From Flavobacteriales bacterium (GTDB taxonomy: Bacteria > Bacteroidota > Bacteroidia > Flavobacteriales_D > Crocinitomicaceae), in contig CANHSL010000013.1 in assembly GCA_947463385.1 (NCBI GenBank), positions 1-39,304 on the forward strand: a stretch of DNA of 39,304 nucleotides, read 5' to 3'. The notes beneath the pieces are model-generated. The model saw only the letters and a list, made by a program, of their open reading frames with translations. It searched no databases and had not been told where the DNA came from. Positions 15,016 to 21,865 of the stretch are shown piece after piece (positions within the stretch are counted from its first letter, which is position 1; the number at the start of each line of letters is the position of its first letter). A program made the translations under genes and the position numbers.

Positions 15016-16770
15016 CTAATGAAAAATATGTAAAAAGCCCGCGAGTAAGAACTTGGTTCGTTCTTGGTCGTCGTATGCGTACTTTTCACTGTCGGGTAAT
15101 ATCGTATAAAAGTATACCCCATCAGAAAGTTCTTTGCCGTTATCGGCTATGCCAGACCAATCATTTTGGTATGCATCATTTTGATAAACTAAATTACCCC
15201 ATCGATTAAACACCCTCAACTGCACGGCATTGTAGTCTTCTAGATGTTGAATTATGAAAACCTCGTTTGTTTGATCACCATTTAATGTTAACACATTAGG
15301 AGCAACTAGCGGACATTGATTAAAGACAGCAATTGGATCAATAATAGCCGTTTTACCACATTGATCTTGCACCTCTATAGAAAATAAATTTTGGTTCGGC
15401 GCCAACAAGGAACCTGACAATGTGATGGTGTCACTGTTTGGAAAAACTCCAGGCGACCAATTATATTGATACGGTGGTAAACCAAAACTAACCGAGCAAC
15501 CAAGCCAAGGGACCTCGCCTCCCCCAACACAAACATTTACAGAATCCAGGGCTACAAGTTGTAAGGGTTGATAATCGACTAAGTTAAGTGTAATCGAAGT
15601 GGTGTCGAAGGTGCCATCGCAGGGATTGGGAACGATAACACTAAAGAATACTGTTTCGGTTGATTCAACCAAGGTATCCAACAATGCTTCAACAGCAATG
15701 GTATCTGAAAACACACCTGTAGGAATGGTTAGTGAGGCGGGAATGAATGGATAATCAGTGCCATTTGTGGCTGTTCCACCTAAACCAATTTGCACAATTA
15801 AGTTCGATGTAGTATCTGTTCTTGATATTATAAACCCTGCAAAACCGCAATCCTCAACCAGTTGGGGTGGTCCTGTAATATTAACAGCAATCGGTATATC
15901 CACCTGACAAATGACTACTCTAAACGCGAAGGTTCTAATCTTTGAATTTATTAACACCCCATTTCTAAATTCGTTTACCCTTACCCCAGCAACAAAATTC
16001 CCAATGTTGTTTGGCGTGAAAGACATCATACCCGTTTGGGCATTTATTGTAATTGATGAGCCCACACCAAAAGGAACGAGGGTGGAAAATCCGGGATTCC
16101 ATGCTACCCCTGCATATGGAGGGGGCGATTCGGGGTTAGGGATTACATTAGCTATACTTCCACCGAGTAAGGGGTCTGCTAGCTCATAAGTGAGGGAATC
16201 ACCATCCGGATCAAAAGCAACATGGTCAAAGTTCAGGGTGTTTTGTGCGCAAAGCACCAAGGGGGGATAATTTGTGAATCGCGCACCCTGATTATACACT
16301 GGAGTTAATGCACTCCCTGGAATAAACGTTGTTAATGTGATTCCATTATTTCCGGGATCTACGATATTGTCTATATTATTTGCCCAACAGCATCGTTGAT
16401 AAGATATATGATACCCGGATGGATTGAATGGTAATTGAATGGTATCAATATAAATTCCTTTTTCAACACAAATATTATTTGGCGGGGTTACGCAAGGGTC
16501 ATCGTACACAATGGGTAAAATTGAACTGGAGAATAAGGAAACAAATTCTTCTGAATAAAATGTTCCATCTTCATTGAATATCGTATAAACGAGCGGGTTG
16601 TCATAGGCCGTTGCACTGTTACAATCTCTATAAATCTCAAAAGTTACTTTATAAAAACCGTTCCCTAAGGAATCGTAATAAATTTCACCGCCAAGAATAT
16701 GTGTAGCCTTAACCTGATTGGTTAACACACAAATCAATGCAAAACAAAAACCTAATACTAATTTTCTCAT
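15016..16770 (-). CDS. Secreted Calx-beta protein with type B T9SS sorting domain
   Basis: A 584-residue exported protein. A signal peptide (about residues 1-22) precedes ATHILGGEIYYDSLGNG, the start of a family widespread in Bacteroidota with large surface proteins. A Cys-rich N-terminal half includes QRCCWANN. Residues about 303-398 look like a Calx-beta fold (GGTATNGTDYPFIPASLTIP, then LVESTETVFFSV). The last 95 residues form a gliding-motility-type (CHU_C, type B) sorting domain: NVLTLNGDQTNEVF, FNRWGNLVYQND, GVYFYTI. So it is probably carried by T9SS to the surface or medium. It follows the PKD protein gene by 14 bases, so the two form an operon. The substrate or binding partner cannot be read from sequence. 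Confidence 0.85.
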   Translation of the reverse strand: MRKLVLGFCFALICVLTNQVKATHILGGEIYYDSLGNGFYKVTFEIYRDCNSATAYDNPLVYTIFNEDGTFYSEEFVSLFSSSILPIVYDDPCVTPPNNICVEKGIYIDTIQLPFNPSGYHISYQRCCWANNIDNIVDPGNNGITLTTFIPGSALTPVYNQGARFTNYPPLVLCAQNTLNFDHVAFDPDGDSLTYELADPLLGGSIANVIPNPESPPPYAGVAWNPGFSTLVPFGVGSSITINAQTGMMSFTPNNIGNFVAGVRVNEFRNGVLINSKIRTFAFRVVICQVDIPIAVNITGPPQLVEDCGFAGFIISRTDTTSNLIVQIGLGGTATNGTDYPFIPASLTIPTGVFSDTIAVEALLDTLVESTETVFFSVIVPNPCDGTFDTTSITLNLVDYQPLQLVALDSVNVCVGGGEVPWLGCSVSFGLPPYQYNWSPGVFPNSDTITLSGSLLAPNQNLFSIEVQDQCGKTAIIDPIAVFNQCPLVAPNVLTLNGDQTNEVFIIQHLEDYNAVQLRVFNRWGNLVYQNDAYQNDWSGIADNGKELSDGVYFYTILPDSEKYAYDDQERTKFLLAGFLHIFH

Positions 16771-16784
16771 ATTTAAATACTTAA

Positions 16785-17981
16785 CTATTCCTCAATCCAA
16801 ACCCTTTCCATCGTTCCATCCTCAAAATACAGTATAAGAATTTGACCCGGTCTTTTTACTGTTACTCTACCACTCAAATCAGTTATTCTGACTATTTTTT
16901 TTGAAGACAACACATTCAAATCATTAATTCCGCCGGTTAAAATAGTTAAGTTTAACGTAACCAAGCTATCACAGGCATTTACATTTGCTGCTGTGTCAAC
17001 GTAAGTCCCCGAAGCTGTATAAACAATCCCGTTGAATGGCCATGTGTAAGGACCTGTGCTAGTTACATTCAATGTTCCGGTTAAAAGTGGTTGAACTGTG
17101 ATTGCCATAACGCTCGTGTCGCAATTAATGCCATTACAAGCAATTAATTGAACGTTGTATGACCCTGGAAAATAATAGCACGCTGGATTGGGATTTTGCA
17201 GGGTGGACGTTTGACCGTTCCCGAAATCCCACGCGAATGTATTTGACCCGGTACTTGTATTGGTAATCGAAATGCAGTCGCCTAAGCAGGGTGTGTCAGT
17301 GGAAAGCATGTAAGAAGCAGTCACTGAAGGTTGAACTGGGGATGTGATTTTCACGTTATTTATAGCTAGGGAAGGGTCTGAACCGGCACCGTCATTATCG
17401 TTATGCCATTCAAATCCAATTCTCAATGTGGAGATATTCGAACAACCAGCGGGCAACAAGGCAACAACACTACTCCAAAGCCCTTGCCCTGAGGCACATG
17501 TTGTACCTGAGTTTATAGCCTGTAAAACAGACCAATTACTTCCACCGTCTACACTATATACTACATTGCCAAAATCAGCTCCTGGCTGCCCAATACCGAT
17601 GTAATCAAAAGACAAATTCAAAACACCAGTATTCATAGTATTTATATTGGCACTGGTGAATGCGCGTTTATTTGTTGTAGCATCAATAAATCCAAGGCCA
17701 CCATCGCCTGCATTATAGGTAGCCCCACTACCAACGCACCATGCACCTTGGCAACTCACATGCAGGGTCTTATTGCCGTTACTGGCAACCCCACAATTAC
17801 CTGCCGCTACCCCACCTTCCGCATCGGAAATAACCCAGTTATTTGCATCTATACCGTTAGCGCCAATTGTAGCATTTAAAGTCCAAGTTGCGGGATTTTC
17901 AAAATCATCTTGCCAAATGACGTTTTGCGCATAAAAAGATACTTGGATTAGCAGTATAGTAAGGAGTAGGTTGTTTTTCAT
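16785..17981 (-). CDS. Secreted PKD-domain protein
   Basis: A 398-residue exported protein with a signal peptide (about 1-19, ending YAQ). Residues 20-215 form a jelly-roll-like adhesion or binding region: WQDDFENPATW near the start, LNLSFDYIGIG, YSVDGGSNWS and SLAINNVKI. A PKD domain covers about 218-297, with FAWDFGNGQTST at 249-260. The last 45 residues (KKIVRITDLSGR, then ILILYFEDGTMERVWIEE) resemble a short C-terminal element common in secreted Bacteroidota proteins, not a canonical type A or B sorting domain. It is the first gene of a two-gene operon with the type B protein. Probably surface or extracellular; no enzyme motif seen. Confidence 0.8.
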   Translation of the reverse strand: MKNNLLLTILLIQVSFYAQNVIWQDDFENPATWTLNATIGANGIDANNWVISDAEGGVAAGNCGVASNGNKTLHVSCQGAWCVGSGATYNAGDGGLGFIDATTNKRAFTSANINTMNTGVLNLSFDYIGIGQPGADFGNVVYSVDGGSNWSVLQAINSGTTCASGQGLWSSVVALLPAGCSNISTLRIGFEWHNDNDGAGSDPSLAINNVKITSPVQPSVTASYMLSTDTPCLGDCISITNTSTGSNTFAWDFGNGQTSTLQNPNPACYYFPGSYNVQLIACNGINCDTSVMAITVQPLLTGTLNVTSTGPYTWPFNGIVYTASGTYVDTAANVNACDSLVTLNLTILTGGINDLNVLSSKKIVRITDLSGRVTVKRPGQILILYFEDGTMERVWIEE

Positions 17982-18065: not shown

Positions 18066-19580
18066 ATGCGTTTCTCAATCCTTGTGATTTTATTGATAAG
18101 CTTTAAATTCTATGGTCAAATAGAAAGTATTTATTGCCCGGAAATTAACGACCAATTGAAATCGAAAGGCGTATTTCCTTTTGGCGTAGCATCCGGAGAC
18201 CCAACGGAAAAAGGGGTTGTGCTATGGACGGCATTAAACCCATTCAAACTTCAACCCTTTCGTATCGTAAGTTGTCAGGTAAGTGAACAAGCTAATTTCA
18301 AAGAGGTCGCCAGAACATACCAATACGAAGTAGCGATTGCGCGAGGCTTGTCGGTTAAAATGAATGCCACGAATCTCTCGCAAGACAAGCAATATTACTA
18401 TAGATTCATTTATGGCGAGGATACTTCTAATATTGGAAAAACGAAAACAATTGGAACGAATCCAGACCACTTAACATTCGCAGTGGTAAGTTGTAGTAAT
18501 TATGAATGGGGTTATTTTAACGCTTATGAATCCATTGCTAATATTCCTAATCTAGATTTTGTAGTCCATCTTGGCGATTACATCTATGAATATGGCCCGG
18601 GTGTTTATGGTGATAAGTCCTTAAATCGTGTGCATCTGCCTGCCAAAGAATTACTAACGATTCAAGATTACCGATCTCGTTATGCCCAATATCGATTGGA
18701 TGAACAGCTGCAAAAAGTTCATCAAAACACAGCGTTTATTTCCGTCTGGGACGACCATGAAATCGCAAATGATACATACACCGAAGGAGCTCAAAATCAC
18801 CAAGAAGAAGACGGGGATTGGAATGAACGAAAACATGCCGCTCAACAAGCATATTTTGAATGGTTACCCATTGCCGACAATACGCAATATGAAATACAAA
18901 GGGAATTTAACTTTGGTTCCTTAGCCAATTTATATATGCTTGATGAACGACTAAAAGGAAGAACAAAACAACCTACGCAAGAAGGCGAAAACCTAGAAAG
19001 CAGCAGCATGTTAGGAAGCACACAATATAATTGGCTTGTGAACTCCATGAATCAATCGGAAGCCGCATGGAATATTCTTGGTAATCAAGTGCTCTTTTCT
19101 AGTTTTACCATTCCACCAGATGTAGCCGGCATTAAAAAAAGTATGGATACGTGGCAAGGGTATTTGAAAGAACGAAATCAATTATTCGATGAATTTCATA
19201 AAATCAGCCTTGCTAAACATCAAGCAAATAACCTAATTGTGCTTACTGGAGACATTCATTGTTCAATAGCCTTTAAACTTGAGCATGGAAATGAACCGCT
19301 CGGGGTTGAATGGGTTGCACCCAGTGTAACATCTGCTAATTACAATGAACGATATTCGTCATGCAAGACAAAAGCGGTTGAACGAAAACTACGAAATAAG
19401 GAACTTAATACCACATTGGACTTTGTAAACTTGCGACATCATGGATATGTCCTTGTTGAACTTACTACTTCCCATGCAAAATCAACATGGTTTAAAGTAA
19501 AGGTGAATAAACCGGGTAAAACAAAATCTAAAAAGATTCATTCAGAATCAATTCATAAAATTATTGCCCTAAACGGATAA
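18066..19580 (+). CDS. PhoD-like phosphodiesterase/alkaline phosphatase
   Basis: A 504-residue secreted metallophosphatase of the PhoD family, which releases phosphate from phosphodiesters or monoesters outside the cytoplasm. A short signal peptide (1-17, ending YGQ) is followed by the PhoD N-terminal beta domain (FGVASGDPTEKGVVLWTAL). The catalytic core has the family metal-ligand positions: Cys143 in VSCSNYEWG, Asp171 and Tyr174 in HLGDYIYEYG, VWDDHEIANDTY at 227-238, and Asp396/His398 in LTGDIHCS. The VAPSVTSAN segment follows. The Tat twin-arginine seen in Bacillus PhoD is absent, so export is by Sec. No T9SS tail is present. It is divergent from the PKD operon. Substrate is inferred from family only. 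Confidence 0.9.
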   Translation: MRFSILVILLISFKFYGQIESIYCPEINDQLKSKGVFPFGVASGDPTEKGVVLWTALNPFKLQPFRIVSCQVSEQANFKEVARTYQYEVAIARGLSVKMNATNLSQDKQYYYRFIYGEDTSNIGKTKTIGTNPDHLTFAVVSCSNYEWGYFNAYESIANIPNLDFVVHLGDYIYEYGPGVYGDKSLNRVHLPAKELLTIQDYRSRYAQYRLDEQLQKVHQNTAFISVWDDHEIANDTYTEGAQNHQEEDGDWNERKHAAQQAYFEWLPIADNTQYEIQREFNFGSLANLYMLDERLKGRTKQPTQEGENLESSSMLGSTQYNWLVNSMNQSEAAWNILGNQVLFSSFTIPPDVAGIKKSMDTWQGYLKERNQLFDEFHKISLAKHQANNLIVLTGDIHCSIAFKLEHGNEPLGVEWVAPSVTSANYNERYSSCKTKAVERKLRNKELNTTLDFVNLRHHGYVLVELTTSHAKSTWFKVKVNKPGKTKSKKIHSESIHKIIALNG

Positions 19581-19591
19581 GAAACCGTCCA

Positions 19592-19653
19592 AACTACGTA
19601 TAACTACGTAGCACCTTCCCAATAACTACATAGCTTCTTATCGGTATGTACGT
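19592..19653 (+). repeat. Phased TACGT-core repeats, putative operator array
   Basis: AACTACGTA occurs at 19592-19600 and again at 19602-19610, and AACTACATA at 19624-19632. A further TACGT core lies at 19649-19653. The core starts (19595, 19605, 19627, 19649) are spaced 10, 22 and 22 bases, close to one, two and two helical turns, so all would lie on one face of the DNA. The array is upstream of the T9SS protease gene and downstream of the PhoD-like stop. I infer a regulator-binding array; the protein is unknown. Confidence 0.55.
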
Positions 19654-19706
19654 GTATTTTGCATGTGCCAGAAGAAAAACTGGATCCATCAGACTTTATA
19701 TATAAT

Positions 19707-19714
19707 CACCTTTG
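19707..19714 (+). promoter_or_regulatory. Possible -7 element of the protease gene
   Basis: CACCTTTG differs from TAnnTTTG at the first base. No TTG is found at the normal -33 spacing, which would suit activation from the upstream repeat array. The start point would be near 19721, about 24 bases before the ATG. Confidence 0.35.
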
Positions 19715-19741
19715 GTTTAACAAACAACGCTAAAACCAAAG
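19710..19741 (+). repeat. Inverted repeat just before the protease start codon
   Basis: CTTTGGTTT (19710-19718) and AAACCAAAG (19733-19741) are perfect 9-base inverted arms around a 14-base centre. The right arm ends 3 bases before the ATG. It could be a DNA operator overlapping the promoter, or an RNA hairpin over the start if transcription begins further upstream. The -7 candidate overlaps the left arm, which favours the DNA reading. Confidence 0.5.
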
Positions 19742-19744
19742 CAT

Positions 19745-21865
19745 ATGAAAAAAATAGCAGTACTTTTCGTTTTAATCTTAGGAAGTTTAACCACTACGAC
19801 TTTAGGGCAAGTTTCTAAAGTTTGGGTACAAGTAACCGATCATTCAGCAATCCCAGCGGTTTCAGCGGATGGACAATTGGTATCAAGTAATGAAACTTTC
19901 AATGCCGCGATTTCTTCCATCGGAATTACCAAAGTAACACAAGCATTAGCTTCGTCAAGACAAGCAAAGCTTCAACAAGTTTATGAAATCGAATGTGCTT
20001 GTACTGAAGAAGTATTAACCAATACCTTAAAATCAATACCTGTTCTTTCGGGAATTGAAGCAGCACCAAACTACCAAGTGCTTTACACACCAAACGACTA
20101 TAATTTAGGTCTTGCAAATAATTATGCCCTGGATTTGATTAATGCACAAGGAGCATGGGACATCACACAAGGTAATGCAAGTTTTCTTATTGGTATTAGT
20201 GATCAAAACGTAAATCCATTGCATGAAGAATTGACTGGTAAAATCGTGTCATATGACCCGAGTAATACAGCAACACCAACACACGGAAATGCCGTATGTG
20301 CAATTGCGGCAGGAAACACAAACAACAATATTGGACTTAGTTCCATTGGATTCAATTCATCGATAGCATTCTATCAAATGAACTACAATGAATTACTTGT
20401 TGCTACATACAACGGAATTCGGGTGGTAAACCTAAGCTGGACTTCTGGATGTTTTTACAACCAATACGAACAAGATGTAATGACCGAAGTATACAATAAC
20501 GGAACATTTATTATTGCCGCTGCTGGAAATGGAAACACATGTAATTCTCCAGATGCCTTAGTTTATCCAGCTGCATATGCTCATGTATTTGCAGTAACGA
20601 GCATTGGTGAATTAGATAACCACGAACAAGTAAACGGAGATCCATTATCTACGCATCAACACAATCAAATGGTTGATTTATCTGCTCCAGGATACAATGT
20701 TGCGATTGCTCCGTTCGACGGATGGTATTTGAATAGTTCTGGCACCTCCTACGCCGCACCGTATGTAACAGGAACTGTTGCCCTTATGTTAGCTGTAAAT
20801 CCGTGCCTAGGAAATGTTGATATTGAAACAATCCTTAAAAATTCATCTACCAATATTGATGCCCTGAATCCATTGTATGCAGGGAAAATTGGAAGCGGTC
20901 GATTAAATGCTGCAGCTGCAGTCTTGTTCGCTCAAACCTTTGTTCACGAAGCGATTTTTAATGTAAATATTCAAGGGACTTGCGCTAGCACCTCTTCAAC
21001 GGTAAGCCTTAATCCAACCAATGTAACGGGTAACGTATCGGTTACATGGTCTAATGGTATGGTAGGGCTTCAAAATCCGGGAATAGAAACAGGAACCTAT
21101 ACCCTAACCTTGGTGGATGCCATTGGTTGTAGTTCAGATACCACGTTTACAGTGAATGCCCCAGTTGCGGTACAAGTTAACGGTGTTGTAACTCAAATTC
21201 AGTGTTTCGGTCAAGCAAATGGTGCAATCGATGTAAGTGTATTACAAGGAAATCCTGCTTTTACTTACGCTTGGGATAACGGAGCAACTACTCAAGATTT
21301 AACCAACCTTGATGCGGGAACCTACCGATTAACCGTAGTTGATGCGAATGGCTGTATTTCGTACAGCAGCTATACCATTTCTCAACCTACTGAGATTACA
21401 TTAAATGCTACCGTGACGGATGAAGTACAAGGCAATGACGGAACGATTGATTTAACAATTACTGGTGGAGTTCCATCCTATACTACCCTGTGGTCAAATG
21501 GTGTAAACACTGAGGACCAAACGAATCTTGCCGCTGGAACATATGAAGTGACAGTAGTTGATGGGAATGGATGTATGAATAGTTTAGAGGTAATAGTTTT
21601 GAATAATCAAACAAACAGTGTAACAGAAGAACATTCAATTAACATGACGGTATTTCCAAATCCTAGCATGGGAAATGCAACAGTTCAGTGGAATGAAGAA
21701 ATGGAACAACTCACGGTAATTGATAACAACGGTCGCGTTGTTTGTAATAAAGAAATCAACGGACTTAATTCAATTGAAATTAATTCATTGAGTTCAGGAA
21801 CTTACTTTGTGAATTTATATAATAAAGCAGGAATTGCAGGTACACAGCGAATCGTTGTTCTGTAA
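19745..21865 (+). CDS. T9SS-exported subtilisin-like serine protease with SprB-type repeats
   Basis: A 706-residue S8 family protease. Domains in order: signal peptide (1-21), an inhibitor-like propeptide (about 25-112) and the catalytic domain (about 125-395). The triad is Asp153 in GISDQNVNP, His180 in THGNAV and Ser335 in GTSYAAPYVTG, with oxyanion Asn262 in AAAGNGN. Three SprB-like repeats (about 400-625) follow, each with W(S/D)NG, GTY and VDxxGC. A type A T9SS sorting domain covers about 631-706, with VFPNPSMGNATVQW, IDNNGRVV, LSSGTYFVNL and RIVVL. It should be carried across the outer membrane, trimmed and anchored or released, to digest extracellular protein. Regulation may run through the repeat array and inverted repeat upstream. 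It ends 19 bases before a bidirectional terminator. Confidence 0.93.
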   Translation: MKKIAVLFVLILGSLTTTTLGQVSKVWVQVTDHSAIPAVSADGQLVSSNETFNAAISSIGITKVTQALASSRQAKLQQVYEIECACTEEVLTNTLKSIPVLSGIEAAPNYQVLYTPNDYNLGLANNYALDLINAQGAWDITQGNASFLIGISDQNVNPLHEELTGKIVSYDPSNTATPTHGNAVCAIAAGNTNNNIGLSSIGFNSSIAFYQMNYNELLVATYNGIRVVNLSWTSGCFYNQYEQDVMTEVYNNGTFIIAAAGNGNTCNSPDALVYPAAYAHVFAVTSIGELDNHEQVNGDPLSTHQHNQMVDLSAPGYNVAIAPFDGWYLNSSGTSYAAPYVTGTVALMLAVNPCLGNVDIETILKNSSTNIDALNPLYAGKIGSGRLNAAAAVLFAQTFVHEAIFNVNIQGTCASTSSTVSLNPTNVTGNVSVTWSNGMVGLQNPGIETGTYTLTLVDAIGCSSDTTFTVNAPVAVQVNGVVTQIQCFGQANGAIDVSVLQGNPAFTYAWDNGATTQDLTNLDAGTYRLTVVDANGCISYSSYTISQPTEITLNATVTDEVQGNDGTIDLTITGGVPSYTTLWSNGVNTEDQTNLAAGTYEVTVVDGNGCMNSLEVIVLNNQTNSVTEEHSINMTVFPNPSMGNATVQWNEEMEQLTVIDNNGRVVCNKEINGLNSIEINSLSSGTYFVNLYNKAGIAGTQRIVVL

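Follow-up and report, generated by a model that had tools for sequence, protein, structure and literature searches.

A conserved multi-site promoter array upstream of T9SS-type secreted proteins in one family of Flavobacteriales and its candidate NarL/FixJ-type regulator

A HisKA_3 partner kinase is a feature of the NarL/FixJ family of response regulators. According to the excerpts of published accounts on which we draw here and below, NarL sites include single heptamers, and narG is activated by NarL through upstream sites that lack the 7-2-7 arrangement (PMC4549865); the motif described for LiaR of Streptococcus mutans spans 25 bp and includes a 16-bp inverted repeat (PMC4447274). Where T9SS is concerned, PorXY-SigP acts on secretion-machinery genes via an ECF sigma factor (PMC5005315, PMC4800418), PorA, a small CTD protein of Porphyromonas gingivalis, acts upstream of PorXY (PMC7712824), and the sprB operon is regulated via alternative sigma factors (PMC9723704). 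The array of sites reported here was not found described in the open-access literature searched.

The window, that is, the whole 39,304-nucleotide stretch of Flavobacteriales DNA analyzed here, contains a gap in which the original prediction had placed four TACGT-type cores at steps of 10, 22, and 22 bases. All sequence units that it named were present as written: AACTACGTA at 19592 and 19602, AACTACATA at 19624, and TACGT at 19649. The protein encoded downstream proved to be a T9SS-type protease, as had been proposed. The features of the locus were as follows, with row counts taken from a 29-row alignment of related loci (A3, below).

18066-19580 and 19745-21865: PhoD-like phosphatase gene and S8 subtilase gene, between which the gap under study lies
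19594-19611, + strand: sites 1 and 2, an 18-bp inverted repeat CTACGTA-TAAC-TACGTAG with cores at 19595-19600 and 19605-19610
19627-19633, + strand: site 3, TACATAG, 22 bp past site 2; [TC][AG]CNTA in 28 of 29 rows
19641-19647, + strand: site 4, TCGGTAT, conserved core GTA at 19644-19646; GT[AG] in 26 of 29 rows
19649-19653, + strand: TACGT, the fourth core of the original prediction; kept in 4 of 29 rows and missing in locus L081
19653-19660, + strand: conserved box TGTATTTT; in 27 of 29 rows by a relaxed pattern, usually 57-58 bases before TTTG
19707-19714, + strand: -7 element CACCTTTG, TTTG at 19711-19714; TTTG in 29 of 29 rows, the TA of TAnnTTTG replaced
19745-21865, + strand: T9SS-type S8 subtilase, 706 aa, with Peptidase_S8, SprB, and Por_Secre_tail domains

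The word AACTACRTA occurred three times in the window, each time within this gap (expected, 0.53; at least three copies in 2 of 100 shuffles), which is a modest excess for 39 kb. Scoring the window with a weight matrix for the entire grid (one training row, L006, one base out of register; control, 1 match above 12 in 0.7 Mb) gave no further match above 12, in agreement with the earlier impression that its other gaps lack such a cluster. The suggested genome-wide scan for AACTACRTA yielded no enrichment of the word alone (34 sites versus 138 for the reversed control); the scan for its spacing was more telling, in that AACTACRTA-N13-AACTACRTA was found as a single copy in the 2.6-Mb genome (reversed control, 0), and among the 30 of 34 AACTACRTA loci that were read, partner units at 10 and 22 were seen only in the 19592 array. 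This genome held two strong copies of the grid, the 19592 array and one on contig 2, where the gene downstream encodes a 49%-identical protease. A third match, coinciding with one other of the 30 loci (contig 83, G000:C83:7528-7636) and preceding a 48-aa lipoprotein-like ORF, was too weak to claim (E 0.004). Elsewhere in the window, two more proteins with CHU_C and PKD domains were encoded at 15016-17981 on the minus strand, without the array.

Across relatives, the elements were held at fixed offsets: TA[AC]GTA at 0 (25 of 29 rows), TACKTA at +10 (25 of 29 rows), TACKTA at +32 (in some loci 31), GTA at +49 as part of a unit at +46, the box at +58, and TTTG at +115/116, in a near-gapless alignment with diverged spacers. 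Mean information over the 29 selected rows was 1.42-2.00 bits for the six conserved elements, 0.31 for the 97 spacer positions, and 0.50 for TACGT at 19649-19653. Alignment A3 joined 13 rows of an earlier alignment (A2; 16 of 18 prepared regions, with L009 and L038 excluded) to 16 of 18 regions from a later grid search, and dropped the near-copies L033, L037, and L044 as well as L088 and L142. Loci retrieved by the models were selected for the grid and TTTG, and since weaker grid matches were left out, the A3 percentages describe typical members. A multi-site, helically phased array was thus correctly recognized by the original prediction, whereas four equal cores at 10/22/22 gave way to a grid of 0/10/32/46/58: the array is real and regulatory, and its fourth element had been misplaced, TCGGTAT rather than TACGT holding that position.

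Gaps of the two closest relatives were 91-93% identical to this one, with the first three units intact; because such similarity proves little, the upstream regions of 21 homologues from a protein search were read, these being homologues whose match reached the N-terminal part and whose upstream DNA was on the contig (C-terminal-only and more distant matches excluded). The same grid was present, as model matches, upstream of 18 of the 21, which had been retrieved by protein similarity and not by motif; 14 of these 18 regions trained the model that scores them, and two, G008C5 and G004C5, have degenerate sites. In the other three regions (G001C299, its counterpart G024C17, and that of a minus-strand gene on G008:C60) the grid was not found. 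Ten homologue loci from a second retrieval, in which L079 and L086 are places met before, likewise carried the array, eight with TGTATTTT and two with a variant box by eye; the count excludes L082 (which starts inside the gene) and the distant L090-L092. As the original prediction had anticipated for orthologue promoters, the array was kept, and it was kept in paralogues too. Compared with the window, three homologue loci with 79-82% protein identity (L080, L081, and L083) matched at 30-32 of the 33 grid positions but at 53-61 of the 97 spacer positions, and one with 66% protein identity (L005) matched at 30 and 32 of these, respectively. Model R2 matched 48 of 150 family genomes at E 0.01, many of them weakly, and at 1e-4 its matches came from 15 genomes out of 199 in the order, in 3 of 62 genera that belong to a single family; the genome searches scored a limited number of candidates, so that absence of a match is not proof of absence. 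Taken as a cis-element, the array is well supported.

Besides this long form, a short form was recognized before several short secreted proteins, in which the inverted repeat occupies 0/10, site 4 falls at 24, and the box at 36; this is the long layout minus exactly 22 bp, or two helical turns, whose presence varies by gene: other short secreted proteins carry the long form. A short-form matrix matched 63 places on both strands of the 2.7 Mb of collected loci, a non-random sample (reversed control, 1); some of these places coincide with the downstream half of a long array. In 53 of the 63, TTTG lay 57 or 58 bases past the box, though TTTG is not scored by the matrix.

Genes under the array were not limited to proteases. 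It also preceded 264-aa proteins (one of two scanned had SprB at 5.2e-9 and Por_Secre_tail at 2.8e-13); proteins of 107-130 aa in which a CTD-like part seems to follow a signal peptide (of four scanned, two gave Por_Secre_tail below the cut-off, at 0.013 and 0.0015, and two gave nothing); and membrane-like proteins of 68-71 aa with no Pfam family above the cut-off. Secreted proteins of about 110 aa that seem to consist of hardly more than a signal peptide with a CTD-like part were seen under the array at L137, L140, L135, and other loci. At G016:C1:477270-477391 and at L136, arrays stood before 68-aa membrane-like proteins near a protease gene with its own array, and the same G016 contig held three nearly identical array-plus-protease copies (184604-191581 and 1346102-1348165). 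The array is not a general secreted-protein motif, since the window's own genome has two strong copies, both before proteases of one family. That the grid is a chance pattern, or the trace of recent gene duplication without function, might be argued from the lack of genome-wide enrichment of AACTACRTA and from the many array genes related via the CTD-like part; yet the spacers diverged and the grid stayed, and it also precedes the 68-71 aa proteins, so we regard this explanation as negligible.

Sites 1 and 2 could in principle pair as the stem of a structured RNA. Two measures of arm pairing were at most slightly above shuffles, namely, a covariation score of 0.154 versus 0.120 (31 of 500 shuffles as high) and 82.8% versus 79.5% paired cells (23 of 500 as high), but the most variable inner pair was unpaired in 10 of 29 rows, further pair types numbered 6 against a shuffle mean of 7.1, and the array lies upstream of the conserved TTTG element. 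A symmetric protein site yields the same weak pairing signal and, with pairing so close to shuffles, fits better than a stem; the RNA reading was accordingly rejected as very improbable. At 19710-19741, just ahead of the start codon, the leader is bordered by a separate inverted repeat with nine-base arms, CTTTGGTTT / AAACCAAAG; in two relatives its left arm was identical and its right arm changed at 1 of 9 bases.

As the protein that may read the array, our candidate is a 211-aa NarL/FixJ-type response regulator, whose own copy lies on contig 27. It has a Response_reg domain (7.6e-23) followed by a GerE domain (1.7e-16), as a NarL/FixJ response regulator requires, and its nearest solved relatives by sequence were VraR (5hev, E 3.7e-30) and NarL. 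A GerE-domain survey of 26 genus genomes found a response regulator of 211-213 aa in 13; these formed a clade of their own (98/98), 75-97% identical to the own copy, and for the other GerE proteins read, identity to that copy did not exceed 44% over 55 residues or 35% over longer stretches. Within the genus, all 9 array-bearing genomes of the family sample had the regulator and none of the 10 others did (conservative count); with two samples joined, the figures were 17 of 17 and 1 of 19, respectively. The joined count scores as array-less G092 (E 0.002), G003 (E 0.009), and G006 (E 0.005, 80% complete, with the regulator); G300, which carries the array, stands outside the regulator count. Absence from the array-less G002, G007, G009, G012, G015, G017, G022, and G023 is based on the GerE listing and the genes read, some of these eight being less than 90% complete and GerE matches outside the genes read reaching at most 39 bits. 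Because the array-less genomes fall mostly in one clade of 11, with G003 apart in the LytTR tree, this match amounts to one or two independent events.

Gene position is the stronger evidence for the regulator. In 10 genomes of two sister genera, g31 and g23, it lay within 3 kb of the array (G120, G173, G076, G171, G057, G102, G149, G049, G147, and G124). The array stood before a protease-like gene in 10 g31 genomes (G112 cut by the contig end); in 7 of the 10 the regulator lay past that gene at a distance of no more than 3 kb, and the other 3 (G181, G178, and G090) had it on another contig. In g23 (G049, G147, and G124), the regulator gene ended 19-93 bases from the array match, which is weak in G147 and G124 (E 0.002); the protease follows in G049 and G147, and the contig ends in G124. 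Pfam identified the protease in G120 and G147; in the other sister-genus loci it was recognized by eye. A PAS/HisKA_3 kinase was found near the regulator gene in four g31 loci, and lone receivers of 131-136 aa were found beside the regulator or protease in all three sister-genus loci tested:

L299, 1222-1620: lone receiver
L303, 7652-8062: lone receiver
L307, 1761-2156: lone receiver

Some sister-genus genomes had the regulator and no array match at E 0.01 (e.g., G155, G068, and G139). In the window's own genus, the regulator gene is detached from the protease and follows an atpG-like gene (by eye), and no kinase was recognized by eye beside it in six loci read. An OmpR-size response-regulator-like gene adjoins one array (G005C17b).

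Whether the NarL-type gene is merely a neighbor or clade marker, with another DNA-binding protein reading the array, has to be weighed against these positions. The presence/absence match rests on few events, and the families surveyed were LytTR, GerE, and AraC; adjacency in 10 genomes of two genera argues the other way, and we judge another binder unlikely. AraC genes were rejected in that role, their distribution not following the array (none found in the array-bearing G004, G013, and G018), and among neighbor genes of 21 array loci (clusters of at least three loci) there was no common regulator, the clusters consisting of array-gene-related families and ordinary synteny. The more specific proposal that a LytTR-type regulator binds sites 2 and 3 as direct repeats has some appeal: excerpts of PMC4847170 give LytTR sites as two repeats of 9-11 nt, 11-13 nt apart, with no common consensus, and the 9-bp units of sites 2 and 3, with 13 bases between them, fit. 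Of 26 genus genomes, 25 have a LytTR gene, and in G018 and G016 one is separated from an array by about 8.5 and 11 kb, respectively. Against this, array-less genomes have LytTR genes just as array-bearing ones do, the array is built mainly around an inverted repeat, and the 22-bp step is missing from the short form. With a gene distribution that does not follow the array, LytTR was set aside as quite unlikely. Assignment of the NarL/FixJ-type regulator is moderately supported by these comparisons of sequence.

For the promoter itself, excerpts of PMC9723704 give TAnnTTTG as the Bacteroidota sigma-A consensus at -7 and TAnnTTGY as the SM5 promoter of Flavobacterium psychrophilum. In the array loci, TTTG was invariant (29 of 29 rows) and TA mostly replaced; TATTTTGC at 19655-19662 fits the SM5 pattern, but its G was not conserved in relatives. 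The poor -33 region of the original prediction holds family-wide, no column 14-29 bases before TTTG having a major-letter frequency above 0.66. An invariant TTTG with poor TA and -33 parts suits an activated sigma-A promoter. Transcription would start near 19720, placing the box at about -63, site 4 at -76, site 3 at -90, and the inverted repeat at -117.

We therefore propose, at a probability of roughly 0.7 for the whole reading, a response-regulator-driven and probably activator-dependent promoter that combines a NarL/FixJ-type binder, the array, and the housekeeping polymerase. Several regulator molecules would cooperate in binding the TACKTAG half-sites, two of them as a dimer at the 18-bp inverted repeat and others at sites 3 and 4; from this fixed position, together with whatever contacts the TGTATTTT box, they would recruit the housekeeping polymerase to a promoter with an intact TTTG and poor TA and -33 parts. 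Phosphorylation by a PAS/HisKA_3-type kinase is the likely input, given that the sister-genus regulator lies near such a kinase and a lone receiver. From the sequences compared, we infer the identity of the binder, activation, and phosphorylation of the regulator; repression fits the same promoter anatomy. More tentatively, and at somewhat less than even odds, a dedicated system of NarL-type regulator, lone receiver, and PAS kinase might control a few T9SS-type secreted proteins via an enhanceosome-like array in two interchangeable forms that differ by a 22-bp two-turn module, and the small signal-peptide plus CTD-like proteins of this regulon may feed back on secretion like PorA. The comparison gives a precise cis-code shared by a group of secreted proteins, lists the genes under it, and puts a name to one candidate regulator; with its rigid spacing and two natural forms that differ cleanly by 22 bp, the array lends itself to work on how bacterial regulators cooperate along DNA.

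Set beside the described systems, the candidate shares with NarL the receiver and GerE output domain of the NarL/FixJ family, whereas the sites differ in geometry: NarL sites are, in the excerpted account, inverted heptamers spaced 7-2-7 with TAC outward, and the repeat of the array is 7-4-7 with TAC inward. Compared with NarL at narG, the array has a rigid 0/10/32/46/58 grid, the extra box, and secreted-protein targets. The nearest solved relative of the candidate points to the VraR/LiaR type, yet the array sites differ from the CesR motif TCAGHCTnnAGDCTGA (PMC4447274), and a multi-site array is absent from the excerpted account of LiaR in that article. With LytTR direct-repeat sites, as excerpted from PMC4847170, the 22-bp step of sites 2 and 3 is held in common, but LytTR genes do not follow the array. 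PorXY-SigP and our reading of the array alike link two-component control to T9SS; in the excerpted accounts the former targets machinery genes, whereas the array belongs to TTTG-containing promoters of genes for secreted proteins. As far as these partial accounts extend, an array for secreted proteins with a NarL-type candidate regulator is new relative to the described control of the machinery or of the sprB operon.
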